Of a DNA stretch of 64,000 nt, positions 44,572 through 60,304 are shown one piece after another. The position numbers and the translations under genes are program-made. Numbering within the stretch: the first letter of the stretch is position 1; each line of letters begins with the position of its first letter. Where the stretch lies: positions 1 to 64,000 of the forward strand of contig CAMBEQ010000008.1 in NCBI GenBank assembly GCA_945865545.1, in the 5' to 3' direction. The stretch comes from Sediminibacterium ginsengisoli. Lineage in GTDB: Bacteria; Bacteroidota; Bacteroidia; Chitinophagales; Chitinophagaceae. Below the pieces are notes generated by a model that saw nothing but the letters and a program-made list of their open reading frames with translations, was not told the DNA's origin and searched no databases.

Positions 44572-44602
44572 TTGGGTAATTTATAAAAGGGTTGTAAATT
44601 TG
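44572..44602 (+). promoter_or_regulatory. Bacteroidota-type promoter of the his operon (TTG-N20-TAAATTTG)
   Basis: TTG at 44572-44574, TAAATTTG at 44595-44602. Confidence 0.75.
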
Positions 44603-44606
44603 CAGC

Positions 44607-44657
44607 ATGATAATAAAAAACCATACACATCATTTTCATTTGCTCTACAAAGGGTAA
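44607..44657 (+). CDS. hisL: his operon leader peptide MIIKNHTHHFHLLYKG
   Basis: ATG ATA ATA AAA AAC CAT ACA CAT CAT TTT CAT TTG CTC TAC AAA GGG TAA; 4 His within 6 residues; followed by terminator and hisG. Confidence 0.9.
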   Translation: MIIKNHTHHFHLLYKG

Positions 44658-44720
44658 GCTATGGGTGTAGGTATTATACTATATTTAACCAAAGGGCTTA
44701 CTAACAAGTAAGCCCTTTTT
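44653..44720 (+). promoter_or_regulatory. his attenuator: antiterminator (44653-44660 with 44695-44702) versus terminator (44694-44702 with 44707-44715 + T5)
   Basis: Terminator stem GGGCTTACT-AACA-AGTAAGCCC-TTTTT; GGTAAGCT can pair with the 5' arm GGCTTACT (core GTAAGC/GCTTAC). Confidence 0.85.
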
Positions 44721-44776: not shown

Positions 44777-45631
44777 ATGCGTTTAAAATTAGCCATTCAG
44801 AAATCGGGCCGTTTACATGATGATTCTATTCAATTGTTGAAAGAATCGGGAATTGATATAGGCAATGGAGTCAATAAATTAAAAGCGGAAGCGACTAATT
44901 TTCCATTGGAGCTATTCTTTTTAAGGGACGACGATATTCCACAATATGTGGAAGATGGGGTAGCGGATATTGGATTTGTTGGAGAGAATGTAGTGTACGA
45001 AAAAGCTAAAAAAGTAGAAGTGGCTTATGATTTAGGTTTTGGAAAATGCAGATTGAGTTTTGCTGTTAGAAAAAATGAAAAATTTACAGGTCCTAACTAT
45101 TTAGTAGGCAAGAAAATTGCAACAAGCTATCCGGTTTTAGTGCAAGGATATTTGGATAAGCATCATATTAAGGCGGAGATACATGAAATTAGTGGCAGTG
45201 TTGAAATAGCACCTGGCATTGGACTAGCGGATGTGATTTGCGATTTAGTAAGCAGCGGTTCTACTTTATTTATGAATGGCTTACAAGAAGCAGAGACTAT
45301 TTTAAATTCTCAGGCTGTATTAATTAAAAAATCAGCCTTGGATCCAGCAGCTGCGGCTATTTTAGATAGACTACTATTTAGAATAGAATCGGTAAAAAAG
45401 GCTAAACGAAATAAGTATGTATTATTAAATGCCCCCAATGATAATTTAGAAAAAATTATTTCCTTATTGCCAGGTATGAAAAGTCCGACAGTAATTGCTT
45501 TAGCCACTCCAGGTTGGAGCAGTGTACATAGTGTCATTGCAGAAAGCGATTTTTGGGAAATTATAGAACAATTGAAATTAGCAGGTGCTGAAGGAATATT
45601 AGTGGTGCCTATAGAAAAAATGATATTGTAA
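44777..45631 (+). CDS. hisG: ATP phosphoribosyltransferase (HisG long form)
   Basis: 'MRLKLAIQKSGRLHDDSIQLLKESGI', 'GVADIGFVGENVVYE'; C-terminal regulatory domain. Confidence 0.97.
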   Translation: MRLKLAIQKSGRLHDDSIQLLKESGIDIGNGVNKLKAEATNFPLELFFLRDDDIPQYVEDGVADIGFVGENVVYEKAKKVEVAYDLGFGKCRLSFAVRKNEKFTGPNYLVGKKIATSYPVLVQGYLDKHHIKAEIHEISGSVEIAPGIGLADVICDLVSSGSTLFMNGLQEAETILNSQAVLIKKSALDPAAAAILDRLLFRIESVKKAKRNKYVLLNAPNDNLEKIISLLPGMKSPTVIALATPGWSSVHSVIAESDFWEIIEQLKLAGAEGILVVPIEKMIL

Positions 45632-46926
45632 TGATTAAAGTATACCAAGAGCCCAAGCAGAAAGATTGGCCTAGTTTATTAGCTCGTCCGCAATTCGATG
45701 CCTCTCCTTTAAAAATTAAAGTAAGAGAGATTATGGAGGCGGTGAAAGAGAAAGGAGATATTGCTTTAGCTGAATACACACTTGCATTTGATAAAGTTGC
45801 CATCGCTAATTTTAAACTTAGTCCCGACGTTATTGAAGCTGCGGAAAAAGAATTGACACCAGGTTTAAAAACAGCCATACAATTGGCTAAAGTAAATATT
45901 GAAGTATTTCATCAGCCTCAAATTCAAAAAGAAGAAAGAATTGAAACCATGCCTGGTGTTTGGTGTTGGAGAAAATCGGTAGGCATAGAAAAAGTGGGAA
46001 TTTATATTCCTGGTGGCACTGCGCCATTATTTTCAACTGTGCTCATGTTAGGAATTCCTGCAAAAATGGCTGGCTGCAAAGAAATTATTTTATGTTCACC
46101 TCCTAACGAAAAGGGAGTCATAGATCCTGCCATTATTTATGCAGCAGCATTAGTAGGGGTTAGTTCCATTTATAGCATTGGAGGTGTACAAGCTATTGCT
46201 GCTTTAGCCTATGGAACAGAGACCGTCCCTAAAGTAAATAAAATTTTTGGCCCGGGAAATCAATATGTAACTGCTGCAAAGCAATTGATACAAGAAGAAG
46301 GCATAGCTATTGATATGCCTGCAGGTCCGAGTGAAGTTTGCGTTTGGGCAGATGAAACTTGTATTGCTTCCTTTGTGGCTTCCGATTTATTAGCTCAAGC
46401 AGAACACGGTGCGGATAGTCAGGTAATATTAATTGCGAATAAAATAGAAGTAATTGAATTAATTCAAAAAGAGATAGAGCAACAAATAATTTTGTTGCCC
46501 AGAAAAGAAATGGCTTCAAAGGCCTTGATGAATTCTAAAGCAATTGTTATTGAAAATACCGATGATGCCATTGCTATGGTAAATGAATATGCACCAGAGC
46601 ATTTGATTCTATCTATAGATAATGCGGCACAAATAGCAGAAAAAATTATCAATGCAGGTTCTATATTTATTGGTAATTTTTCTCCAGAATCGGTAGGAGA
46701 TTATGCAAGTGGAACCAATCATACCCTTCCCACCAATGGCTTTGCTAAAGCGTATAGTGGTGTAAGTATGGATAGTTTTGTTAAGAAAATCACTTTTCAG
46801 CAATTAACGGAAAGGGGATTAACCAATATAGCGCCCACCGTTATTGAAATGGCCACTGCAGAGGGATTGCAAGCACACAGCAAGGCAGTGGAACTAAGAG
46901 TGGAATGGATTAAATCTAAAATGTAA
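45631..46926 (+). CDS. hisD: Histidinol dehydrogenase
   Basis: 'KVGIYIPGGTAPLFSTVLMLGIPAKMAGC', 'MPAGPSEVCVWAD', 'LLAQAEHGADSQVIL', 'YASGTNHTLPT'. Confidence 0.98.
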   Translation: MIKVYQEPKQKDWPSLLARPQFDASPLKIKVREIMEAVKEKGDIALAEYTLAFDKVAIANFKLSPDVIEAAEKELTPGLKTAIQLAKVNIEVFHQPQIQKEERIETMPGVWCWRKSVGIEKVGIYIPGGTAPLFSTVLMLGIPAKMAGCKEIILCSPPNEKGVIDPAIIYAAALVGVSSIYSIGGVQAIAALAYGTETVPKVNKIFGPGNQYVTAAKQLIQEEGIAIDMPAGPSEVCVWADETCIASFVASDLLAQAEHGADSQVILIANKIEVIELIQKEIEQQIILLPRKEMASKALMNSKAIVIENTDDAIAMVNEYAPEHLILSIDNAAQIAEKIINAGSIFIGNFSPESVGDYASGTNHTLPTNGFAKAYSGVSMDSFVKKITFQQLTERGLTNIAPTVIEMATAEGLQAHSKAVELRVEWIKSKM

Positions 46927-46930
46927 GACT

Positions 46931-48001
46931 ATGAAATTTGATATTAAAAAAATAGTTAGACCTAATATTGAAATATTAAAAGCCTATTCCTCTGCAAAGG
47001 ATGAATACACTGGAGAAGCCAATGTATTATTAGATGCGAATGAAAATAGTTTAGGATCTCCATTAACCAAATGGTACAATAGGTACCCAGATCCTTATCA
47101 GAAAAAAGTAAAAGAAAGGCTGGCTTTTATTAAACAAATAAAATCGGAACAAATTTTTTTAGGGAATGGCAGTGACGAATGTATTGATAATTTATTTCGC
47201 ACATTTTGCGAACCAGGCAAAGACAATGTAATCATTTGCCCACCTACTTATCCTATGTATGAAGTAGGCGCTAATATCAATAATATTGAAATAAAAAATG
47301 CACCGCTTTTGCCTAATTTCCAATTAAATGTGGCGCATATAGAGCAATTGGTGAACGAACAAACAAAAATAATTTGGATCTGTTCTCCCAATAATCCGAC
47401 AGGTAATTCATTAGATAGAATTGATATAGAAACGATATTAAATCATTTTAACGGGTTGGTGGTAGTAGATGAAGCGTATATCAATTTCTCTAAGCAAAAA
47501 TCATTTGCGCAATCTTTAATTGACTATCCTAATTTAGTAGTCTTACAAACATTAAGCAAAGCTTGGGGTTTGGCAGGGCTTAGATTAGGAATGGCATTTG
47601 CTAGTGAGGAAATAATAGGATATATGAATAAAGTAAAAGCGCCTTATAATATTAGTATGGTTACTCAGGAGTTGGCCTTGACAGCGCTAGAGGAAGTGGG
47701 TCAAGTGAATGACATGATTGCCCATTTGGTAGATATGCGTATTGCACTAGCAGCAGTGATTGAAGGTATGCCCTTTGTGGAAAAGGTATACCCATCAGAC
47801 ACCAATTTTTTATTAGTTAAAATACCCAAAGTGCCCGAATTGTACCGCTATTTATTAACTCAAGGGATCGTAGTGAGAGATCGCTCTAGCTTAGAGAATT
47901 GCAGTGATAGCGTAAGAATTACGATTGGGACAGAACAGGAGAACACTCTTTTGATAGATGCCATGGCCAAATGGATCGAGTTTACATTTACAAATGACTG
48001 A
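46931..48001 (+). CDS. hisC: Histidinol-phosphate aminotransferase
   Basis: 'LLDANENSLGSPL', 'ICSPNNPTGN', 'VVDEAYINFS', 'LQTLSKAWGLAGLRLG'. Confidence 0.97.
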   Translation: MKFDIKKIVRPNIEILKAYSSAKDEYTGEANVLLDANENSLGSPLTKWYNRYPDPYQKKVKERLAFIKQIKSEQIFLGNGSDECIDNLFRTFCEPGKDNVIICPPTYPMYEVGANINNIEIKNAPLLPNFQLNVAHIEQLVNEQTKIIWICSPNNPTGNSLDRIDIETILNHFNGLVVVDEAYINFSKQKSFAQSLIDYPNLVVLQTLSKAWGLAGLRLGMAFASEEIIGYMNKVKAPYNISMVTQELALTALEEVGQVNDMIAHLVDMRIALAAVIEGMPFVEKVYPSDTNFLLVKIPKVPELYRYLLTQGIVVRDRSSLENCSDSVRITIGTEQENTLLIDAMAKWIEFTFTND

Positions 48002-48062
48002 TTTTAAAGAAAATTAATTAAATTACACACTCATCAATTTTTAAATTAAACAATTCAAGTAT

Positions 48063-49319
48063 ATGAAAAAAGGTGGATCAATTTTAAGTTTATTTATATT
48101 GTCCCTATCCATCATGGGAAAGGCGCAAGAAAATGCAGGATTAAAATTACCCGTTGGATTTAAAGCAAGCTTATTTGCCAATAATATTGGAAGCGCAAGG
48201 CATATTGCTATTACTAAATCAGGAGTAATTTTTGCAAAATTAAATAACCCTAATAAAGAAGGTAATTCGATTGTAAGATTAGAAGATACCAACAATGATG
48301 GGGTAGCAGAAAAAATAAATGGGTTGGCGAAATATGGTGGTACTGGAATTTACGTAAAAGGTAATAGCTTATATGCTAGTTCTAATGAAGCTATTTTTAA
48401 ATATGATTTAAATAGTAAAGACGAAGTCGTGAATCCACTTACCCCATTAACTGTTGTTAGCGGATTAATTGACAGAAGAGAGCACAATTCAAAATCAATC
48501 ACATTGGATATGGCCAATAATATTTATGTAAATATTGGTGCTTACTCCAATGCATGTCAAGAAAAAAATAGAATGCCAGGCTCACAAGGCATGAAGCCTT
48601 GTCCTATTTTAGATTCTGCCGGAGGAATTTGGAAATTTGATGGAAGTAAGCAAAATCAAACTTATAAAGATGGTAAGCGCTATGCCACTGGTTTAAGAAA
48701 TGTAATTGGCTTGGATTGGAATACGCAAACCAATCAATTATTTGTTGCGCAACATGGAAGAGATCAATTAAATAGTTTCTATCCTAATTTATATACAGAT
48801 GCGCAAAATGCTGAATTGCCAGCTGAAACATTTTACGCAATCAATGAAGGGGATAATGCAGGTTGGCCTTATGTATATTACGACCCCATTCAACATAAAA
48901 AAATAGTGGCTCCAGAATATGGTGGCGATAGCAAAATGGAAGGTTCTGCTGAATTTAAAGATCCAGCGGTTGCTTTCCCAGCTCATATGGCGCCGATGGC
49001 TGTACTGTTTTATACAGGTGATCAATTCCCTGCAAAATATAAAAACGGTGCATTTATTAGCTTTCATGGATCATGGAATAGAGCCCCACTTCCTCAAGAA
49101 GGTTTTTTTGTAGCCTTTGTTCCTTTTAAAGACGGAAAGGCCACTGGAGAGTGGGAGATTTTTGCGAATGGCTTTGCAGGAATGGAAGAGGGAGTTAAAG
49201 TCACCAATACAGGTAAGGCGAAGGCTAGACCTTGTGGTTTAGCTTTAGGGCCCGATGGTTCTATTTATGTAAGTGATGATACCAAAGGAGCCATCTTTAA
49301 AATTAGTTATAATAAATAA
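48063..49319 (+). CDS. PQQ-dependent sugar dehydrogenase / sorbosone dehydrogenase-like secreted beta-propeller
   Basis: Signal peptide; 'LPVGFKASLFANNIGSARHIAITKSGVIFAKL', 'YATGLRNVIGLDWNTQTNQLFVAQHGRDQL', 'FISFHGSWNRAPLPQEGF'. Confidence 0.88.
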   Translation: MKKGGSILSLFILSLSIMGKAQENAGLKLPVGFKASLFANNIGSARHIAITKSGVIFAKLNNPNKEGNSIVRLEDTNNDGVAEKINGLAKYGGTGIYVKGNSLYASSNEAIFKYDLNSKDEVVNPLTPLTVVSGLIDRREHNSKSITLDMANNIYVNIGAYSNACQEKNRMPGSQGMKPCPILDSAGGIWKFDGSKQNQTYKDGKRYATGLRNVIGLDWNTQTNQLFVAQHGRDQLNSFYPNLYTDAQNAELPAETFYAINEGDNAGWPYVYYDPIQHKKIVAPEYGGDSKMEGSAEFKDPAVAFPAHMAPMAVLFYTGDQFPAKYKNGAFISFHGSWNRAPLPQEGFFVAFVPFKDGKATGEWEIFANGFAGMEEGVKVTNTGKAKARPCGLALGPDGSIYVSDDTKGAIFKISYNK

Positions 49320-49360
49320 TAAAGGGGTTAAAAGTAAAATAATAAAAGAGTTATTAAGTA

Positions 49361-49789
49361 ATGGGAAATAAAGTAGAAAAAAGTATTAAAGCATTGTGCT
49401 TTTGTATCATCATGATTTTAAGTACGAATTGTGTGCAAGCCCAAAATTTAATCAACGGCAAAAAAATATTTGAAACCAGGTGTTTGGTTTGTCATCAATC
49501 AGATGGAGGGGGCGTTCCTAATATGAATCCGCCACTAGATGGTTCCACCAACGTCAATGGGAAAGATATTGCTAGGTTAGTAAAGATTATACAAAATGGG
49601 TATGATGAACGTGTGGCACTTGATGGAATGTATTATAATAATGCAATGACTGGAAATCCAGATTTAAAAGAAGATGCCATAGCAGATGTATTAAGTTATA
49701 TTAGAAATACTTGGTCTAATAAAGCTGGATTGGTTACCATTACCGAAGTGAAAAAGGCAATTATCAAAAACAAGCTTAACAAAAAGTAA
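49361..49789 (+). CDS. Secreted c-type cytochrome
   Basis: Signal peptide, haem motif 'CLVCHQSDGGGVPNMNPPLDG', distal 'NNAMTGNPDLKEDAIADVLSYIRN'. Confidence 0.92.
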   Translation: MGNKVEKSIKALCFCIIMILSTNCVQAQNLINGKKIFETRCLVCHQSDGGGVPNMNPPLDGSTNVNGKDIARLVKIIQNGYDERVALDGMYYNNAMTGNPDLKEDAIADVLSYIRNTWSNKAGLVTITEVKKAIIKNKLNKK

Positions 49790-49818
49790 TTAAGTTACAA
49801 AAAGGATAATTTATACCA

Positions 49819-50949
49819 ATGCGACCTATTTTATTTATAGACAGGGATGGAGTTATTTTAGAAGAGCCGAAAACTGATTTTCAAATTGATGCCATTGAAA
49901 AAACAAGTTTTGTTGCAGGTGCTATTACTAATTTACAAAAAATTGCAGCAGAGTTTGGCTATTATAAAGTGATGGTTACCAACCAGGATGGTTTAGGTAC
50001 AGCGGCTTATCCTTCAGAACAGTTTGAGCCTTATCAGCAATTAATGCTTAGAACTTTGAAGGGAGAAGGTTTTGTATTTGATGAAATTCATATTGATTCT
50101 ACTTTTGAAAAGGATCATGCACCCACTCGTAAACCAGGTATTGAGCTGATACAGCATTTAGTAAATAATAAAGAGTTTGATATAACTAACTCTTTTGTAA
50201 TTGGAGATAGATGGAGTGATATTCAATTGGCAAAAAATTTAGGCTGCAAGGCCATTTATCTTACTACTGAAAATCATCACCTTTCTGCTGATCAAGAAAA
50301 AGAATTAAGAAGTACGATTGCTTTTGAAACCAATAGTTGGGCTGCTATTTATTCTTTTCTAAAATTAGGATTGCGGACAGTAAAGCATGAGCGCAATACC
50401 AAGGAAACAAAAATTAGCATTGATTTAAATATGGACGGAAAGGGTCAAGCCGATATTCATACAGGACTTGGATTTTTTGACCATATGTTAGAGCAAATTG
50501 CAAGACATGGATCTATCGATTTATCTATCCATTGCCATGGCGATTTGCATATTGATGAACACCATACTATAGAGGATGTGGGCTTGGCTTTAGGGGAGGC
50601 TTTTGCTAAAGGACTAAGCGATAAAAAAGGGATGGAACGTTACGGATATGCTTTACCAATGGATGAAGCGGAAGCAAAAGTGTTAATTGATTTTGGAGGA
50701 CGTAATTGGATTGTTTGGGATGCCAGTTTTACTAGAGAAAAAGTGGGGGAGATGCCAACAGAAATGTTTTTCCATTTTTTCAAGTCCTTTAGTGATGCCG
50801 CAAAATGTAATTTGAATATTAGTTGCCAAGGGGAAAATGAACACCATAAAATTGAGGCTATTTTTAAAGCTTTTGCCAAAGCCATTAAAATGGCCGTTAG
50901 ACGTAATCCAGATAGTGACCAATTGCCAAGTACCAAAGGGGTTTTGTAA
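49819..50949 (+). CDS. hisB: Bifunctional histidinol-phosphatase / imidazoleglycerol-phosphate dehydratase
   Basis: N-terminal HAD 'ILFIDRDGVILEEP'; C-terminal IGPD 'DIHTGLGFFDHMLEQIARHG', 'DEHHTIEDVGLALGEA'. Confidence 0.98.
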   Translation: MRPILFIDRDGVILEEPKTDFQIDAIEKTSFVAGAITNLQKIAAEFGYYKVMVTNQDGLGTAAYPSEQFEPYQQLMLRTLKGEGFVFDEIHIDSTFEKDHAPTRKPGIELIQHLVNNKEFDITNSFVIGDRWSDIQLAKNLGCKAIYLTTENHHLSADQEKELRSTIAFETNSWAAIYSFLKLGLRTVKHERNTKETKISIDLNMDGKGQADIHTGLGFFDHMLEQIARHGSIDLSIHCHGDLHIDEHHTIEDVGLALGEAFAKGLSDKKGMERYGYALPMDEAEAKVLIDFGGRNWIVWDASFTREKVGEMPTEMFFHFFKSFSDAAKCNLNISCQGENEHHKIEAIFKAFAKAIKMAVRRNPDSDQLPSTKGVL

Positions 50950-50984: not shown

Positions 50985-51016
50985 TTTGGTAGAAGAAGTC
51001 CATTCCCGTAAATTTG
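50985..51016 (+). promoter_or_regulatory. Internal trp promoter (TTTG-N20-TAAATTTG)
   Basis: TTTG at 50985-50988, TAAATTTG at 51009-51016; same spacing as the his promoter. Confidence 0.78.
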
Positions 51017-51023
51017 CAATACA

Positions 51024-51080
51024 ATGAAACAAACAAACAATATATGGTGGTGGCATACAAAATCCTTTAGGGTATTGTAG
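51024..51080 (+). CDS. trpL: trp leader peptide MKQTNNIWWWHTKSFRVL
   Basis: ATG AAA CAA ACA AAC AAT ATA TGG TGG TGG CAT ACA AAA TCC TTT AGG GTA TTG TAG; three consecutive Trp codons followed by a His codon; upstream of terminator and trpE. Confidence 0.92.
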   Translation: MKQTNNIWWWHTKSFRVL

Positions 51081-51142
51081 TGACATAACTATATTGTCAA
51101 ATTATACATCAACCCTAACAGCAATGTTGGGGTTTGTTTTTT
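51067..51142 (+). promoter_or_regulatory. trp attenuator: antiterminator (TTAGGGT 51067-51073 with ACCCTAA 51112-51118) versus terminator (51111-51120 with 51125-51134 + T-tract)
   Basis: AACCCTAACA-GCAA-TGTTGGGGTT-TGTTTTTTTT; exact 7-bp alternative pairing overlapping the end of the leader ORF. Confidence 0.9.
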
Positions 51143-51167: not shown

Positions 51168-52586
51168 ATGCAAAAAATTAATATTACTACTACTGTCACA
51201 AAAATGTTGGCAGACACATTTACCCCCGTAGGAATTTATCTCCGTTTAAGAGATCGATTCAGGGATACTATTTTATTAGAAAGCACCGATTCGCATGCTT
51301 CTGAAAACAGTTATTCTTTTATTGGGGTCAATGCAATTGGAGGAATTGAAATTTCTTCCTTCAATGAAATCGAGTACAAGTATCCCAATCAAGACCCAGA
51401 GAAAGAAGTGATTAAGGAGGTACATGCTGCACCTGATCGTATTTGGTCTTATATGCAACAATATGAAATGAATGGGTCCGAAGTTAAAGAAGCCGCTTTT
51501 GCACAAGGATTGTATGGATATACCGCCTATGATGCCATTCCTTTTTTTGACACGATTCAATTTAAAGAGGGAGTGCCATTAATTCCATTAATGCGTTATA
51601 GATTGTATCAGTATGTGATTGCTTTTAATCATTTCAAAGATGAAATTTATATATGTGAGAATCAATTAGCAGGTATTGTTTCAGAACACGAGGCTTTGGT
51701 ATCGTTTATTAAAAGCAAAGATGTACCTCAATATCCTTTTTCCATAAAAGGCAATGAAACTTCAAACTTAACCGATGAGCAGTATAGAGAAGCCGTAAAA
51801 AAAGGCATTCAACACTGTATGAGAGGGGATGTATTCCAAATAGTGTTAAGTAGGCGTTTTCAACAAAGTTTTCAAGGCGATGAATTCAATGTATACCGCA
51901 CTTTAAGAAATATTAATCCATCGCCGTATTTATTTTTCTTTGATTATGGCGATTATAAATTAATGGGTTCTTCACCAGAAGCACAAATCATTATTAAAAA
52001 TGGGAAAGCAGTGGTGCATCCCATTGCAGGTACTTTTAAAAGGAGTGGCGATGAGGCAACAGATATATTAATGACTCAAAAATTACTAGACGATCCAAAA
52101 GAAAATGCAGAACATGTGATGTTGGTGGATTTGGCAAGAAATGATTTAAGTAGGGTATGTAGCGAAGTGAAAGTGAAACAATACCGACAAGTGCACTATT
52201 ATAGTCATGTAATACATTTAGTAAGTGAGGTAGAGGGCAATGTGGCTAAGGGGTCTAATCCTTTTCAATTGGTTTCAAAAACTTTTCCAGCGGGCACTTT
52301 AAGTGGAGCGCCAAAATTTAAAGCCATGCAATTGATTGATTCCATAGAGCCTACTAAACGATCTTATTATGGAGGTTGTATTGGTTTTGTAGGTTTTGAT
52401 GGCTCATGCAATCAAGCAATCATGATTCGTACTTTTTTGAGTAAGCAAAATACACTCACTTACCAAGCGGGTGCTGGGGTAGTGGCGGCAAGTGTTCCAG
52501 AAAATGAATTGCAAGAAGTGAATAATAAATTAAACGCATTAAAAACTGCGATCGTATTGGCTGAGCAACTTCATCAACAGAAATAG
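51168..52586 (+). CDS. trpE: Anthranilate synthase component I
   Basis: 'GDVFQIVLSRRF', 'NPSPYLFFFDYGDYKLMGSSPE', 'HPIAGTFKRSGD', 'VDLARNDLSRVC', 'FPAGTLSGAPKFKAM'. Confidence 0.97.
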   Translation: MQKINITTTVTKMLADTFTPVGIYLRLRDRFRDTILLESTDSHASENSYSFIGVNAIGGIEISSFNEIEYKYPNQDPEKEVIKEVHAAPDRIWSYMQQYEMNGSEVKEAAFAQGLYGYTAYDAIPFFDTIQFKEGVPLIPLMRYRLYQYVIAFNHFKDEIYICENQLAGIVSEHEALVSFIKSKDVPQYPFSIKGNETSNLTDEQYREAVKKGIQHCMRGDVFQIVLSRRFQQSFQGDEFNVYRTLRNINPSPYLFFFDYGDYKLMGSSPEAQIIIKNGKAVVHPIAGTFKRSGDEATDILMTQKLLDDPKENAEHVMLVDLARNDLSRVCSEVKVKQYRQVHYYSHVIHLVSEVEGNVAKGSNPFQLVSKTFPAGTLSGAPKFKAMQLIDSIEPTKRSYYGGCIGFVGFDGSCNQAIMIRTFLSKQNTLTYQAGAGVVAASVPENELQEVNNKLNALKTAIVLAEQLHQQK

Positions 52587-52589
52587 AAA

Positions 52590-53168
52590 ATGGAAAAAAT
52601 GAAAATATTAGTATTTGATAATTATGATTCTTTCACCTATAATTTAGTGCAATTGATAAAAGAAATTGCTCCAAAAGCGACTGTGGAAGTATTTCGTAAT
52701 GATGAAATTGATTTGGGAGAGATAAAAAATTATGATAAAATTTTATTATCCCCTGGACCGGGTTTGCCGGCAGAATCGGGATTATTATTGCCATTAATTA
52801 AAGAATATGCTTCTACTAAATCTATTTTTGGTGTTTGCCTTGGGCAACAAGCTATAGGAGAAAGTTTTGGAGCAAAGCTTACTAATTTATCACAAGTGTA
52901 TCATGGAATAGCTACCCCTATCCATTTAACCAATCCCTCTGATTTATTTGAAGGGTTGCCGGCTCAATTTGAAGTAGGTCGTTACCACAGTTGGGTCGTA
53001 GATGAAAAAGATTTTCCATCAGACTTAATAATCACTTCTAAGGATGACAAGGGGTATATCATGTCCTTAGAGCATACAACTTATGATGTACAGGGAGTAC
53101 AATTTCATCCGGAGAGTGTTTTAACGCCTAATGGAGCAAAGATTATAACAAACTGGCTAAAGAAATAA
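52590..53168 (+). CDS. trpG: Anthranilate synthase component II (glutamine amidotransferase)
   Basis: 'LVFDNYDSFTYNLVQLI', 'LLSPGPGLP', 'FGVCLGQQAIGESFG', 'GVQFHPESVLT'. Confidence 0.97.
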   Translation: MEKMKILVFDNYDSFTYNLVQLIKEIAPKATVEVFRNDEIDLGEIKNYDKILLSPGPGLPAESGLLLPLIKEYASTKSIFGVCLGQQAIGESFGAKLTNLSQVYHGIATPIHLTNPSDLFEGLPAQFEVGRYHSWVVDEKDFPSDLIITSKDDKGYIMSLEHTTYDVQGVQFHPESVLTPNGAKIITNWLKK

Positions 53169-53170
53169 AG

Positions 53171-54163
53171 ATGAAAAAATTATTACAATATTTATTTGAG
53201 CATAAAACTTTAAGTCGCGAACAAGCGAAGGAAGTACTTGTTCAAATCTCTCAAGGGGTATACAACGAACATGAAATCACTTCTTTTGTGACGGTGTATT
53301 TAATGCGTAGTATTACCATTGATGAGTTAATGGGTTTTAGGGATGCATTACTTTCTTTGGCAGTGAAAGTGAATATAGGTGTTGAAAATACCATTGACAT
53401 TGTAGGAACAGGCGGCGACGGTAAAGACACATTTAACATATCCACTTTGGCTTGCTTTATTGTAGCCGGCGCAGGGCAACCTGTCGTAAAACATGGTAAC
53501 TATGGGGCTTCTAGCGTGAGTGGTGCTTCCAATGTGATGGAACAATTGGGGTATCAATTTAAAAATGAAGAAGAGGCTTTGTCTAGAGAAGTAAAAGAAG
53601 CCGGTATTTGTTTTTTACATGCACCACTATTTCACCCGGCATTAAAAACGGTGGGACCTATCAGAAGAAATATTGGGGTACGTACTTTTTTTAATATGCT
53701 AGGTCCTATTGTCAATCCGGCGCAACCAAGATATCAATTGATTGGGGTGTATAATTTAGAAATGGCGAGAATATATAATTATGTATTGCAAACCTTGGGA
53801 AAAGATTTTACGCTGATTCATAGTTTGGATGGTTATGATGAAATTGCGCTTACTACAGATACCAAAGTAATTACCAATAAAGGAGAGTACATTATGACGC
53901 CTTATCAATTAGGGAAGAAAAAAGTATTTAGTGAGGAATTGCATGGGGGCAAAACAGTGGAAGAGGCGGCTAATATTTTTAAAAATATTATTCAAGGCAA
54001 AGGTACTTGGTCACAAAATGCAGTGGTATTGTCCAATGCGGCCATGGCATTATTTGTAACGGGGCAATATGAAAATTATGATTTGGCTTTTCAGGCGGCA
54101 GTAAAAAGTTTAGAATCGGGCGCTGCCAATACTTGTTTACAAAAATTAATAAGTTTACAATGA
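53171..54163 (+). CDS. trpD: Anthranilate phosphoribosyltransferase
   Basis: 'DIVGTGGDGKDTFNISTLACFIVAGAGQPVVKHGNYGASSVSGASNVMEQLG'. Confidence 0.97.
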   Translation: MKKLLQYLFEHKTLSREQAKEVLVQISQGVYNEHEITSFVTVYLMRSITIDELMGFRDALLSLAVKVNIGVENTIDIVGTGGDGKDTFNISTLACFIVAGAGQPVVKHGNYGASSVSGASNVMEQLGYQFKNEEEALSREVKEAGICFLHAPLFHPALKTVGPIRRNIGVRTFFNMLGPIVNPAQPRYQLIGVYNLEMARIYNYVLQTLGKDFTLIHSLDGYDEIALTTDTKVITNKGEYIMTPYQLGKKKVFSEELHGGKTVEEAANIFKNIIQGKGTWSQNAVVLSNAAMALFVTGQYENYDLAFQAAVKSLESGAANTCLQKLISLQ

Positions 54164-54963
54164 GCACGAATATTTTAGCAACCATTGTTGCTCAAAAATT
54201 TATCGAAGTAGCAGCACGAAAGAAGCAAATAAGCATAGCGCAATTAGAAGCCATGCCCTTTTTTGCTCAAAAATCTTATTCTTTACAAGCAAATTTATTA
54301 GATCCAACCAAAACCAATATCATTGCCGAATTTAAAAGAAAGTCTCCTTCCAAAGGGATTATCAATGATACCGCAAGCGTTTGGGAAGTTACTAATGCTT
54401 ATGCGCATTATGGAGCAGCCGGCATTTCCGTTTTAACCGATATGGATTTTTTTGGAGGTAGCTTGACCGATTTATCCATGGCTGTAAAAAATGAAGTCCC
54501 TGTTTTAAGAAAAGAGTTTATTATAGACGAGTATCAACTTATAGAAGCTAAGGCTTATGGGGCATCGGTTATTTTACTAATAGCCAGTTGCTTGACTCCT
54601 GCCGTGACCAAATTATTGGCTGGTACCGCTAAAGAATTAGGTATGGAAGTATTATTAGAGCTTCACGATGAAACCGAACTAGGTCATATTTGTGAGGAGG
54701 TAGATTTTGTAGGCATTAATAATAGAAGTTTGAAATCTTTCGAAGTGAATATTGAACATTCCTTAAATTTAAGAAGCCAGGTTCCAAAAAATAAATTAAG
54801 TATTGCAGAAAGCGGTATTTATGATTTAGCCACTTATCAGCTTTTGAAGCAGGAAGGATTTGATGGGTTTTTAATGGGGGAGTATTTTATGAAACAGGCT
54901 AGTCCTGCAAAAGCCTTTGAAGCATTTGCAAGTGCCATTAAAACTGGAAAGGATGAAGCTTAA
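54160..54963 (+). CDS. trpC: Indole-3-glycerol phosphate synthase
   Basis: Start reassigned to MSTNILATI (ATGA overlap with trpD); 'IIAEFKRKSPSKGIIN', 'VLRKEFIIDEYQLIEAKAYGASVILLIAS', 'VGINNRSLKSF'. Confidence 0.97.
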   Translation: MSTNILATIVAQKFIEVAARKKQISIAQLEAMPFFAQKSYSLQANLLDPTKTNIIAEFKRKSPSKGIINDTASVWEVTNAYAHYGAAGISVLTDMDFFGGSLTDLSMAVKNEVPVLRKEFIIDEYQLIEAKAYGASVILLIASCLTPAVTKLLAGTAKELGMEVLLELHDETELGHICEEVDFVGINNRSLKSFEVNIEHSLNLRSQVPKNKLSIAESGIYDLATYQLLKQEGFDGFLMGEYFMKQASPAKAFEAFASAIKTGKDEA

Positions 54964-55579
54964 AGTATGTGGCATTACTCAAATAGAACAAGCCCAGGCA
55001 TTAGATTCCATGGGTGTAAATTATATTGGATTCATTTTTTATGCTGCGTCTAAGCGATATGTATTGTCTGCCATGACGATGGAGCAATTGGCAGCTTTTA
55101 AGCCAGTGCATGCAAAAAAAGTGGGCGTATTTGTGAATGAATCTATGGAGAAAATTTTGGAAATAGTAAAAACAGCTGGTTTAGATATGGTACAATTGCA
55201 TGGCGATGAAACGGTAGATTATTGTGAAAGCTTGAATCAGTTAGTGCCCGTTATAAAAGTGTTTAGAATTGGCAATGCCTTGCCAAATTATACTGCTTAT
55301 GATAATGCGGCTGCTTATTATTTGTTTGATACAGACAGTGCGCTGTATGGTGGAACAGGGCAACACTTTAATTGGGAAATTATTAAAAACGAGCATTTCA
55401 ATAAGCCCTATTTTCTAAGTGGAGGTATTGGTGCCAATGATGTGCAGGGGATTGAGGTGATGTGTAAAACCAAGGCGGGAAAAAATTTGGCAGCGATTGA
55501 TATTAATAGTCAGTTTGAAACAAGCCCAGGCATAAAAAAATTAGAAAAAATTAAAACATTTATAGATGCAATCATTTAG
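54953..55579 (+). CDS. trpF: Phosphoribosylanthranilate isomerase
   Basis: Start reassigned to MKLKVCGITQIEQ; 'YIGFIFYAASKRYV', 'VQLHGDE', 'FLSGGIGANDV', 'AIDINSQFETSPGIK'. Confidence 0.95.
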   Translation: MKLKVCGITQIEQAQALDSMGVNYIGFIFYAASKRYVLSAMTMEQLAAFKPVHAKKVGVFVNESMEKILEIVKTAGLDMVQLHGDETVDYCESLNQLVPVIKVFRIGNALPNYTAYDNAAAYYLFDTDSALYGGTGQHFNWEIIKNEHFNKPYFLSGGIGANDVQGIEVMCKTKAGKNLAAIDINSQFETSPGIKKLEKIKTFIDAII

Positions 55580-56765
55580 CACAATAAACAATTATCAAAA
55601 TCCTTCAGAGGAAGGCTATTATGGTGAATTTGGAGGTGCCTATATTCCCGAGATGTTGTATGGCAATGTGGAAACCTTAAGAAAACAGTATTTGCAAATT
55701 ATGCAGGATCCTATTTTTCAAACCGAATTTCAACAACTCTTAAAAGACTATGTAGGAAGACCCACTCCTTTATTTTTAGCCGAGCGTTTAAGTAAAGAAA
55801 TTGGAGCTACAATTTATTTAAAAAGAGAAGATTTATGCCATACGGGGGCACATAAAATAAATAACACCATTGGACAAATAATTTTAGCACAAAGATTGGG
55901 TAAGAAGAAAATTATTGCAGAAACTGGTGCAGGCCAACACGGTGTGGCAACGGCTACGGTTTGCGCTTTAAAAGGAATGGAATGTGTGGTGTATATGGGA
56001 GAGAAAGATATTGAAAGACAAGCGCCCAATGTAGCCCGTATGAAAATGTTGGGAGCTACAGTGATTCCTGCCGTTAGTGGTAGTAAGACATTGAAAGATG
56101 CCACCAATGAAGCCATTCGTGCTTGGATCAACGAGCCAATTGAAACACATTATATTATTGGTAGTGTGGTAGGACCGCATCCTTATCCAGATATGGTAGC
56201 CCGTTTTCAAAGTGTGATTAGTGAAGAAATAAGAAAGCAATTAAAAGAAAAAACCGGAACAGAGTTGCCTACGCATGTGGTAGCTTGCGTCGGTGGAGGC
56301 AGTAATGCAGCAGGTGCTTTTTATCATTTTTTAAATGAACCTACAGTAGAATTGGTCGCTGTAGAAGCAGCTGGTCATGGGGTAAATTCTGGTTTAAGTG
56401 CTGCCACCACTCAATTGGGTACACATGGTATTTTACATGGAAGTAAAAGTATTGTAATGCAAACCCAAGATGGTCAAGTAGTAGAGCCACATAGTATTTC
56501 TGCAGGGTTAGATTATCCAGGCATTGGACCACTCCACGCTTTTTTATATGAAAGCAAAAGAGGTACTTTTTTAAGTGCTACGGATGAAGAAGCTTTGGCT
56601 TCCGCCTTTCATCTTTCCAAAATTGAAGGCATTATCCCAGCATTAGAAACAGCCCATGCCTTTTCTGTGTTGCCAAAATTAAATTTAAAACCAACCGATG
56701 TGGTGGTAGTCTGTTTAAGCGGAAGAGGTGATAAAGATTTAGCCACCTATATGCAATATTTATAA
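55566..56765 (+). CDS. trpB: Tryptophan synthase beta subunit
   Basis: 'GYYGEFGGAYIPEMLY', 'LKREDLCHTGAHKINNTIGQ', 'CVGGGSNAAGAFYHF'. Confidence 0.98.
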   Translation: MQSFSTINNYQNPSEEGYYGEFGGAYIPEMLYGNVETLRKQYLQIMQDPIFQTEFQQLLKDYVGRPTPLFLAERLSKEIGATIYLKREDLCHTGAHKINNTIGQIILAQRLGKKKIIAETGAGQHGVATATVCALKGMECVVYMGEKDIERQAPNVARMKMLGATVIPAVSGSKTLKDATNEAIRAWINEPIETHYIIGSVVGPHPYPDMVARFQSVISEEIRKQLKEKTGTELPTHVVACVGGGSNAAGAFYHFLNEPTVELVAVEAAGHGVNSGLSAATTQLGTHGILHGSKSIVMQTQDGQVVEPHSISAGLDYPGIGPLHAFLYESKRGTFLSATDEEALASAFHLSKIEGIIPALETAHAFSVLPKLNLKPTDVVVVCLSGRGDKDLATYMQYL

Positions 56766-56783
56766 AGCGCAAACGAAATTATT

Positions 56784-57557
56784 ATGTCAAGGTTAGAACT
56801 ATTATTTAAAGAAAAGAAAGAACGCGTTTTAAATGTCTATTTTACTGCAGGCTATCCCAATTTAGATAGTACAGATAAAGTAATGTCCAGTTTGCAATCC
56901 AATGGTGCCAATATTATTGAAATAGGTATGCCCTATAGCGACCCTTTAGCAGATGGGGAAGTGATACAAACCAGTAGTATTAAGGCTTTATCCAATGGAA
57001 TGACCTTGACTGTTTTATTTAAGCAATTAGCCAATATGCGAAAAAGTATTCATATTCCTGTTATTTTAATGGGCTATATGAATCCGATTTTACAATATGG
57101 ATTTGAAGCATTTTGCAAAAAAGCAAAAGAAGTAGGGGTGGACGGATTAATTTTACCCGATTTGCCTTTATTTGAGTTCGAACAATTCTATGGGAAAGTT
57201 ATTAAACACAATGGGTTAGATTTTATTTTTTTAGTAACGCCAGAAACACCTCCGGAAAGAATAAAAAAATTAGACAGCTTAAGTTCTGGTTTTTTATATG
57301 CAGTAAGTTCCTCCGCAACTACTGGAAAAGATAAAGATTTTTCAAAAGTAGCCAGTTATTTAAAAGGCTTACAAAATATGCAATTGAAAAATCCAATTTT
57401 AGTAGGATTTGGTATAAAGGATAAAACTACTTTTGATATGGCCACTGCACATACCCAAGGAGCCATTATTGGATCAGCTTATATTCAGGTATTATCCAAA
57501 GGGGGAGATATAGAAGAAAGTACAAGACAGTTTTTAAATGGAGTATTAAGTATTTAA
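56784..57557 (+). CDS. trpA: Tryptophan synthase alpha subunit
   Basis: 'YFTAGYPNLDST', 'IIEIGMPYSDPLADGEVIQTSS', 'DGLILPDLPLFE', 'VGFGIKDK'. Confidence 0.97.
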   Translation: MSRLELLFKEKKERVLNVYFTAGYPNLDSTDKVMSSLQSNGANIIEIGMPYSDPLADGEVIQTSSIKALSNGMTLTVLFKQLANMRKSIHIPVILMGYMNPILQYGFEAFCKKAKEVGVDGLILPDLPLFEFEQFYGKVIKHNGLDFIFLVTPETPPERIKKLDSLSSGFLYAVSSSATTGKDKDFSKVASYLKGLQNMQLKNPILVGFGIKDKTTFDMATAHTQGAIIGSAYIQVLSKGGDIEESTRQFLNGVLSI

Positions 57558-57580
57558 CAACGAGGTTTATAAAATTTAAT

Positions 57581-58171
57581 ATGAAAACAGTTATCATACA
57601 ATACAATGCAGGAAATATTCAATCCGTTTTATACGCTTTGGAGCGATTGGGTGAGACTGCTTTGGTTACGGATGATGCCAATGAAATTAAAACTGCAGAT
57701 AAAGTGATATTTCCAGGGGTGGGCGAAGCCAGCACGGCGATGCAATATTTAAAAGAACGCAAGTTGGACCTGCTTATAAAAAATTTAGAACAACCAGTAT
57801 TGGGCATTTGTTTAGGCATGCAATTAATGTGCACCCATTCTACAGAAAATAATACCCCTTGTTTGGGTATTTTTGAAGAACAGGTAAAACAATTTAAACC
57901 ATTGGACGCCACTATTAAAGTGCCTCAAATAGGTTGGAATACGATTTCCAATTTGAAATCTATTTTATTTGAAGGAATTCCTGAAAATAGTTATGCGTAT
58001 TTTGTGCATGGCTATTATGCGGCTACGGGAGCGCATACGATCGCTACTACCAACTATGTAGAAGACTATAGCAGTGCTTTACAAAAAAATAATTTTTATG
58101 GGGTACAGTTTCATCCAGAAAAGTCGGCGCTCATAGGAGAGCAGCTCATTAAAAATTTTCTTGCACTTTAA
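57581..58171 (+). CDS. hisH: Imidazole glycerol phosphate synthase subunit HisH
   Basis: 'IQYNAGNIQSVLYALERLG', 'VIFPGVGEASTAMQYL', 'VLGICLGMQLMC', 'GVQFHPEKS'. Confidence 0.97.
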   Translation: MKTVIIQYNAGNIQSVLYALERLGETALVTDDANEIKTADKVIFPGVGEASTAMQYLKERKLDLLIKNLEQPVLGICLGMQLMCTHSTENNTPCLGIFEEQVKQFKPLDATIKVPQIGWNTISNLKSILFEGIPENSYAYFVHGYYAATGAHTIATTNYVEDYSSALQKNNFYGVQFHPEKSALIGEQLIKNFLAL

Positions 58172-58201
58172 TTATCAATCAAAAAAAATACAAAAACTTA
58201 A

Positions 58202-58921
58202 ATGCAAATTATTCCAGCTATAGATATTATAGAAGGTAAATGTGTTCGATTGACCGAAGGGGATTACGCGCAAAAGAAAATTTACAACGAAAATCCTTTA
58301 GAAGTGGCTAAGGCATTTGAAGGCATTGGTTTAATGCGTTTGCATTTGGTAGATTTAGACGGAGCCAAAGCTGGAGAAGTAGTGAATTGGAAAGTACTAG
58401 AAAAAATAGCCAATCAAACGCAGTTGAAAATTGATTTTGGAGGAGGTATTAAAACGGAAGCTACATTGAAAACAGTTTTAGATACTGGGGCTAAATATGC
58501 TACCATAGGAAGCTTAGCCGTAAAAAGCCCTGAAATTTTTCAAGAATGGATTGCCCGTTTTGGCGCTAAAGTTTTTATGTTAGGGGCAGATGTGTTCGAA
58601 GAAAAAATTGCTATTGGCGGTTGGTTAGAAAAAACCAATATCACAGTGTTTGATTTTATGAAATTGTATATGGGCAAAGGGGTAAAGCAAATTTTTTGTA
58701 CCGACATTCAAAAAGATGGGAAATTAGAAGGGCCTTCTATTGAATTGTATCAAAAAATACTGGAACAATTTCCAAGCTTACATTTAATTGCTAGTGGTGG
58801 GGTGAGTTCGTTAGATGATTTAATTGAATTAGAGGAAATAGGATGCAGTGCTGCTATTGTTGGGAAAGCCATTTATGAAAATAAAATAACCATTAACGAA
58901 TTAGCTAATTTTAATTTATAA
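58202..58921 (+). CDS. hisA: ProFAR isomerase HisA
   Basis: '[37 protein letters not shown]', '[12 protein letters not shown]', '[10 protein letters not shown]'. Confidence 0.97.
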
Positions 58922-58922
58922 T

Positions 58923-59681
58923 ATGTTAACCAAACGCATTATACCTTGTTTAGATATTAAAGATGGCCGCACCGTTAAAGGGGTTAATTTTGAACAGTTG
59001 CGTGATGCAGGCGATCCTATTGAGTTAGCAGCATTGTATGCACAAGAGGGGGCAGACGAATTAGTTTTTTTAGACATCACTGCCACTATTGAAAAGCGCA
59101 AGACACTTAGCCAATTGGTCAATAAAATAGCGCACCGCATTAATATTCCCTTTACAGTAGGGGGCGGTATTAAAACCGAAGAAGATGTAAGTATTTTATT
59201 ACAAAATGGGGCAGATAAAATATCTATTAATTCGGCTGCATTTTTAGACCCAACCATTATTAATCGCTTTGCGAAAAATTTTGGAAGTCAATGTGTAGTT
59301 TTAGCAATAGATACAAAACTGGAAGCCGATGGAAATTGGTATGTGTATTTAAATGGCGGAAGGCAAAAAACAGACAGCTTGACAACGGAGTGGGCTAAAA
59401 AAGCAGTGGATTTAGGAGCGGGGGAAATATTACTTACATCCATGAACCACGATGGAACCAAACAAGGTTTTGCTTTGGATATAACAGCAACTTTATCTTC
59501 CCAATTAGCTGTACCTATAATTGCATCAGGTGGTGGTGGAACAGCAGCGCATTTTTATGATGTATTTACAACAGGAAAGGCAGATGCTGCTTTGGCAGCA
59601 AGTATATTTCATTACAAGGAAGTACCGATACCTGATTTAAAAAAATACCTACACCAAAAAGGAGTTTCCATAAGAATATAA
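58923..59681 (+). CDS. hisF: Imidazole glycerol phosphate synthase subunit HisF
   Basis: '[36 protein letters not shown]', '[13 protein letters not shown]', '[13 protein letters not shown]'. Confidence 0.98.
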
Positions 59682-59701
59682 AAAATAACAAAAAATAATT
59701 T

Positions 59702-60304
59702 ATGAATATCAATTTTACAAAATATGCAGATGGTTTAGTACCTGCTATTGTTCAAGATGCCGATACGAAAACAGTATTGATGCTTGGATTTATGAATCAA
59801 GCAGCGGTGGAGGCTACTATCGAAAATAAAAAAGTAACTTTTTACAGTCGTTCCAAAAATAGATTATGGACCAAGGGCGAAGAAAGCGGAAACTTTTTAC
59901 AATATATAAGTATGTCCGTAGATTGCGATCAAGACAGTTTATTAATACTTGCCCATCCAGTAGGCCCAGTTTGCCATACTGGAAGCGATACCTGTTGGGG
60001 CAGTGAGAATATAAAAGACAATACCGCATTTTTAAATCAATTAGAGCAGGTCATTGCACAAAGAAAAACTGCTGCTCCAGAAAGTTCTTATGTGGCATCT
60101 CTTTTTGCAAAGGGGGTTAACAAAATAGCTCAAAAAGTAGGGGAAGAGGCAGTAGAAATGGTGATTGAGTCAAAAGACAATAACGACAGCTTATTTTTGG
60201 AGGAATCGGCCGATTTATTGTTCCATTATTTAATACTTTTACAGGCAAAAGGCTTTGAATTAGCGGATGTGGTAAAAGTTTTGCAGAAAAGACATAAGGC
60301 CTAA
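59702..60304 (+). CDS. hisIE: Bifunctional phosphoribosyl-AMP cyclohydrolase / phosphoribosyl-ATP pyrophosphatase
   Basis: 'VLMLGFMNQAAVEATIENKKVTFYSRSKNRLWTKGEESGNF', 'GPVCHTGSDTCW', 'VGEEAVEMVIESKD'. Confidence 0.97.
   Translation: MNINFTKYADGLVPAIVQDADTKTVLMLGFMNQAAVEATIENKKVTFYSRSKNRLWTKGEESGNFLQYISMSVDCDQDSLLILAHPVGPVCHTGSDTCWGSENIKDNTAFLNQLEQVIAQRKTAAPESSYVASLFAKGVNKIAQKVGEEAVEMVIESKDNNDSLFLEESADLLFHYLILLQAKGFELADVVKVLQKRHKA

Follow-up and report, generated by a model that had tools for sequence, protein, structure and literature searches.

A trp leader with a conserved His codon ahead of a joined trp–his operon in Sediminibacterium ginsengisoli: a putative two-input attenuator

In the attenuators of ilvGMEDA, ilvBN and thrABC, a single leader carries codons for more than one amino acid, each of which is made or affected by the products of the operon. 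In E. coli trpL, attenuation is also prevented when the ribosome stalls one codon past the two Trp codons, at Arg (PMC1183508). The trpL locus described here follows the plan of E. coli trpL, with a short leader peptide, tandem Trp codons, strands 1 to 4, and an antiterminator set against a terminator. Its Trp codons are followed by a His codon, and an initial annotation had guessed that the leader senses both amino acids. Comparison with relatives supports this reading (79 of 80 loci with linked his genes in Chitinophagaceae, 19 of 19 in a second clade), which remains unproven at the bench. The literature searched, which left out a 2010 attenuator survey (Lopatovskaya et al.), yielded no description of a Trp/His attenuator.

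The trp–his region and its leader

The window analysed is a 64-kb stretch from an assembly of 2.26 Mb in 66 contigs. On its + strand, the order is his attenuator, hisG, hisD, hisC, two further genes, hisB, trpL, trpE, G, D, C, F, B, A and hisH, A, F, IE. The gap between trpA and hisH is only 23 bp, and the gene order upholds the earlier statement that hisHAFI lie downstream of trpL. Counts in the list below refer to Chitinophagaceae, in which a locus counted as linked if trpA was followed on the same strand by two or more of hisH, A, F and I.

44609..44718, + strand: separate his attenuator with leader MIIKNHTHHFHLLYKG, 5' of hisGDC..hisB (sequence, predicted folding, relatives)
44777..50949, + strand: hisG, hisD, hisC, a sugar dehydrogenase-like gene, a cytochrome c-like gene and hisB (ORFs, gene assignments)
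50985..51016, + strand: predicted promoter of the trp–his transcript, TTTG-N20-TAAATTTG, Bacteroidota type (sequence match; box pair in relatives)
51024..51080, + strand: trpL leader ORF, from ATG at 51024 to TAG at 51078-51080, product MKQTNNIWWWHTKSFRVL, kept across Chitinophagaceae
51045..51053, + strand: Trp sensing codons, three TGG; a run of three in 76/80 linked loci
51054..51056, + strand: CAT (His), put forward as a second sensing codon; this position is His in 79 of 80 linked and 18 of 29 unlinked loci
51067..51073, + strand: antiterminator 5' arm TTAGGGT, within the codons for the last residues of the leader
51111..51142, + strand: intrinsic terminator hairpin and U-run, the 5' strand of the hairpin being the antiterminator 3' arm (predicted folding, pairing)
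51168..57557, + strand: trpE, G, D, C, F, B, A (ORFs; trpE and trpA by NCBIfam, the others by order and tblastn matches in relatives)
57581..60304, + strand: hisH, hisA, hisF, hisIE (ORF and family assignments)

The trpL locus has the make-up of a trp-type attenuator, a short ORF with tandem cognate codons directly 5' of a biosynthetic operon. The arm at 51067-51073 is perfectly complementary to ACCCTAA at 51112-51118, and the terminator stem (51111-51120 with 51125-51134) comprises 10 bp, including wobbles, before the U-run. The terminator and antiterminator share one strand and are mutually exclusive, with the arms present in most relatives. Predicted folding energies are -14.1 kcal/mol for the terminator segment (z -3.6 against shuffled sequence) and -13 kcal/mol for the antiterminator segment (z -2.3). 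A pause hairpin of strands 1 and 2 near the sensing codons is predicted in most relatives; this is a prediction only, with covariation uncounted. The leader, the three TGG codons, the CAT codon, the arm and the distances given by the initial annotation all proved exact on re-reading of the sequence, including the equal spacing of 16 nt between sensing codon and arm in the trp (51051 to 51067) and his (44637 to 44653) leaders. The Rfam search gave no known element at trpL. Its only match in the window was a Bacteroidales-type small SRP RNA (RF04183, 13463-13569, + strand, 87 bits).

The predicted promoter ends 7 nt 5' of the trpL ATG. Full matches on the + strand of the window number two, the second lying at 50077 within hisB, and no full-consensus promoter was found on the + strand from 51168 to 60304 (trpE to hisIE). 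The two boxes are present 5' of the leader in 102 of 120 relatives, usually 4-9 nt short of the ATG, whereas such a pair occurs at 0.4% of random positions. Since the -7 box lies 4-9 nt before the ATG in most relatives, the leader appears to be translated from near the mRNA 5' end; transcription is predicted to start within a few nucleotides of the ATG, and the leader mRNA is probably leaderless or nearly so. The his leader of the window (44595-44609) resembles trpL (50985-51024) in this respect and is apparently near-leaderless too.

In the separate his attenuator, the last His codon is at 44637 and the arm GGTAAGCT at 44653-44660. The his leaders 5' of hisG in 40 relatives hold three to seven His codons and zero Trp codons. 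Cross-sensing is one-way, confined to the trp leader, as expected if the trp leader alone controls genes of both pathways. The pair of sugar dehydrogenase-like and cytochrome c-like genes between hisC and hisB (48063-49789) occupies the same place in many Chitinophagaceae, and it remains near trp in some genomes that have lost the his link.

We propose that trpL controls transcription by ribosome-mediated attenuation and takes two inputs, Trp and His. A ribosome paused with any Trp codon or the following His codon in its A site would leave the arm at 51067-51073 free. The free arm would pair with 51112-51118, no terminator would form, and RNA polymerase would read through trpEGDCFBA and hisHAFI. 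With ample supplies of both charged tRNAs, the ribosome would advance and cover the arm, and transcription would stop. By this OR logic, a shortage of either Trp or His would open the operon, and hisHAFI would stay inducible by His starvation with Trp plentiful, matching hisGDCB under their own His-only attenuator.

The geometry of stalling fits this proposal. An E. coli-type ribosome occupies some 12-13 nt counted from the start of its A-site codon, so the codon after the Trp run would be roughly the last one at which a stall leaves the arm free. Here the arm lies 13 nt beyond the first base of the His codon, and in most relatives it begins 12-16 nt beyond that of the corresponding codon, in keeping with the earlier argument that a ribosome starved for His could leave it mostly free. 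Two features of a multi-amino-acid attenuator are combined in one leader: codons of two amino acids lie in the control region, ahead of the point where the arm becomes covered, and the second amino acid is made by genes of the same operon, its codon being kept with them. The trpL leader of the window holds only one His codon. With this one codon set against three for Trp, the switch probably responds less strongly to His than to Trp, and a single codon is probably also a weaker sensor than the three to seven of the his leader. A dual Trp/His OR gate at trpL is likely in our judgement; sequence, pairing options, gene order and His conservation can be read from the DNA, and no expression data back the proposal. 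Without bench evidence, it is an inference that ribosomes stall at the His codon and that His starvation opens the operon, and so is any estimate of how strong this effect is.

Association of the His codon with his gene linkage

Within Chitinophagaceae, TrpE was detected in 284 of 397 genomes, and 20-kb regions of 120 were read, with genes placed by tblastn before the leaders were extracted. His directly after the Trp run is far more frequent at linked than at unlinked loci (79/80 vs 18/29; Fisher p 9e-7), and the recurrence of the motif at linked loci indicates that WWWH in trpL is not a product of chance. Among the 79, four have two or one Trp. The sole linked exception, L131, reads WWWQH, and the non-His residues at unlinked loci are Q, N, Y, S and L. 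The initial annotation had asked whether alignment would find His only where his genes lie downstream. In that comparison, His is near-invariant where hisHAFI follow trpA and decays where they are absent, 18 of the 29 unlinked loci still keeping it. Loci with the same layout and no His near WWW, named at the outset as a refutation, were not seen in Chitinophagaceae or in the Carboxylicivirga-type clade. His persists where the rest of the leader has been rewritten, as in MSWWWHGVSFLNAV (L110), WWHVSRAYAV (L151) and the single-Trp NNGWHIIPFQG (L133). In one genus (L148, L149), hisH alone stands behind trpA, hisF is about 190 kb away and the leader reads WWWQ; the sensor may have been lost there following partial breakup of the operon. 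Further His codons elsewhere in Chitinophagaceae leaders (24/80 linked vs 6/29 unlinked) were not informative. In 30 genomes from other families of the order, His occurs in 7 of 26 readable leaders, and none has hisF close behind trpE. Judging from these leaders and the unlinked loci of Chitinophagaceae, His can persist or arise without his genes. Many unlinked trp operons keep it, so dual sensing cannot be concluded from a His after WWW by itself.

Shared ancestry was taken into account with a tree built from TrpE, TrpG and TrpD and a two-state model in which the rates of His change either depend on linkage or do not. Loss of His was about 12-fold faster in unlinked than in linked Chitinophagaceae lineages. 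The correlated-evolution model was favoured with outgroup families included (loss rate 2.2 unlinked vs 0.13 linked; LR 21.4, p 2e-5) and within the family only (LR 12.2, p 0.002), where scoring WWWQH as His gave LR 17.5 (p 1.6e-4) and scoring the hisH-only genus as linked gave LR 10.5 (p 0.005). Counted on branches, one loss of His was linked, with linked branches making up 75% of the tree length with His present, versus nine unlinked (p 3e-5). This count includes four losses in one clade with retained His (L135); when the clade is counted once, one of seven losses is linked and p is about 1e-3. The independent-pairs test (treekit) found six supported pairs, too few for significance, with His accompanying linkage in 2.8 pairs and opposing it in 0 on average.

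Among control traits, Thr at +2 (p 0.19), Asn at -3 (p 0.5) and the three-Trp run (p 0.37) were not associated with linkage; Asn at +3 was (p 0.009). Unlinked leaders may evolve faster overall. Since Asn at +3 also tracks linkage, the p value was not relied on alone, and the His signal was weighed against how often the neighbouring residues change. Within linked lineages, the residue after the Trp run changed once and the length of the run three times, compared with 18 changes in the next residue and 36 in the preceding residue. By these counts, the His codon is kept roughly as firmly as the Trp codons, in linked lineages only.

Further trp–his linkages were found by a phylum-wide scan of named records, and linkage outside Chitinophagaceae rests on HisF coordinates. 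In Carboxylicivirga (L235), two genes stand between trpA and the hisHAFI that follow it, and the leader is MNLNSRHNWHWHHSNLSARS. In its family, where linkage means hisF 8.8-11.2 kb behind trpE on the same strand, all 19 linked loci with a readable leader carry His directly after Trp, in the forms GWWHH, WWHY, WWWHH, WHWHH and WWWHW, often with two or three His codons. The sole clearly unlinked locus of the family (G664) reads WWWR, with hisF 226 kb away; another (G677, WWWP) was left out, its trpE and hisF being on different contigs. Mixed Trp/His leaders such as WHWHH and GWWHH occur at L235 and L279-L297 with the layout trp, purU-like, thioredoxin-like, hisHAFI, and a Trp codon may have turned to Gly there where the second His appears.

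In Cyclobacteriaceae, where the order is trp, DAHP-synthase-like, phenylalanine-hydroxylase-like, his, WWWH was found 5' of trpE in about 17 of 22 linked versus 14 of 29 unlinked genomes, among the matches listed. These counts come from an exact-string search and are uncorrected for phylogeny, and the five linked genomes without WWWH were not readable. On this evidence the family agrees only weakly with the linkage pattern, in the same direction. The DAHP-synthase-like and phenylalanine-hydroxylase-like genes lie between trpA and hisH on the same strand at 16772-18900 of L238 and 17045-19250 of L272, and L238 has a terminator-like hairpin 5' of hisH. In unlinked Flavobacterium and Chryseobacterium, WWW is followed by N, K, L, Q, P or Y. 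One Flavobacteriaceae locus (L273, 2784-16410) has a whole his operon directly upstream of trpL-trpE, the leader NWWHMT and no his gene downstream. In another family (L171, L175, L181), hisB is directly upstream of trpL, hisF is elsewhere and the leaders read WWWN.

Alternative explanations for the conserved codon

In a Trp-only attenuator, CAT could be kept as the base of the pause hairpin of strands 1 and 2 and not for encoding His. The codon does lie at the foot of that predicted hairpin (CATACAA/TTGTAATG), CAC is fully paired with GTG in some lineages (L110, L146, L155), and His is fairly common among unlinked leaders too. In unlinked L092, the change of CAT to TAT is accompanied by a change of ATG to ATA on the opposite strand, which implies that pairing has some influence; under the folding model it may contribute where CAC pairs with GTG. 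However, a need for pairing should be independent of his linkage. The C and A of the codon are predicted to be unpaired in 52 of 79 scored linked loci, yet all of these are CAY, a constancy that pairing would not explain. Unlinked loci with a comparable hairpin do carry CAA and CAG, which are the most frequent substitutes for the His codon across unlinked lineages, yet these occur once in 80 linked loci, and the Carboxylicivirga-type clade has extra His codons. Insofar as the predicted folds can be trusted, pairing fails to explain the link of the His codon to the his genes. A purely structural role for CAT is therefore unlikely, though not negligible. As the only reason for keeping CAT, RNA pairing was mostly rejected.

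The codon could also be an inherited relic, ancestral WWWH and ancestral linkage having been passed on together, with His functionless and the correlation due to common descent and to unlinked leaders evolving faster. The ancestor of Chitinophagaceae probably had the linkage, which was then lost about 11 times; His is kept at many unlinked loci, and Asn at +3 tracks linkage as well. Against this, the tree-aware tests are still significant, His changes once in linked lineages in which the codons beside it change 18-36 times, and the pattern is repeated in the Carboxylicivirga-type clade with its own linkage; we give this explanation little credence. Least convincing, and only just worth retaining, is a role of the leader peptide itself, in which WWWH would serve nascent-chain arrest or a trans-acting peptide requiring His. 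A trans-acting trp leader peptide is described for Sinorhizobium (PMC7298713). The residues around WWWH nevertheless vary freely in linked lineages, where only Trp and His are held, and the forms WHWHH and GWWHH exist.

Operon content and comparison with known attenuators

Dual sensing of Trp and His by trpL would be a novel form of multi-amino-acid attenuation, in which a second sensor is matched to a fused second pathway; it is unproven at the bench. A broader reading, which we favour with less assurance than the OR gate itself, is that attenuator leaders track the gene content of their operons, so that a leader comes under selection to sense both end products when unrelated pathways are fused, and the second sensor is lost when the genes separate. 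The his–trp operons of Bacteroidota would then form a repeated natural experiment, with OR gates ranging from WWWH to WWHH to WHWHH, and a repeated evolutionary test of regulators following operon fusion and fission. If so, one RNA leader would join two biosynthetic pathways with little in common beyond PRPP, and single leader codons could be read as a record of operon content. Sequence alone would predict which Bacteroidota induce trp and hisHAFI on His starvation, and the leader would offer a simple design for two-input attenuators.

Known systems close to trpL include the trp attenuators of Flavobacterium, Chryseobacterium and other his-unlinked Bacteroidota, which share its leader architecture, including WWW. 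Unlike trpL, leaders of this type mostly carry N, K, L, Q, S or R after WWW, not His. As in hisL of enterobacteria and the his leader of the window at 44609, a His codon precedes the antiterminator arm in trpL; the his leader differs in holding only His codons (three to seven, without Trp, in 40 relatives) and in controlling hisGDCB only. As in E. coli trpL, the codon after the Trp run belongs to the control region (Arg in that case, PMC1183508). The Arg of E. coli is unrelated to the genes of its operon, whereas the His of the window leader corresponds to his genes that share its operon and is conserved together with these genes; a further difference is the nearly leaderless start of the window leader behind a Bacteroidota promoter. 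In conclusion, trpL resembles the leaders of ilvGMEDA, ilvBN and thrABC in holding codons for more than one operon-related amino acid, but those amino acids belong to one branched pathway, whereas Trp and His come from two separate pathways joined only by operon fusion.
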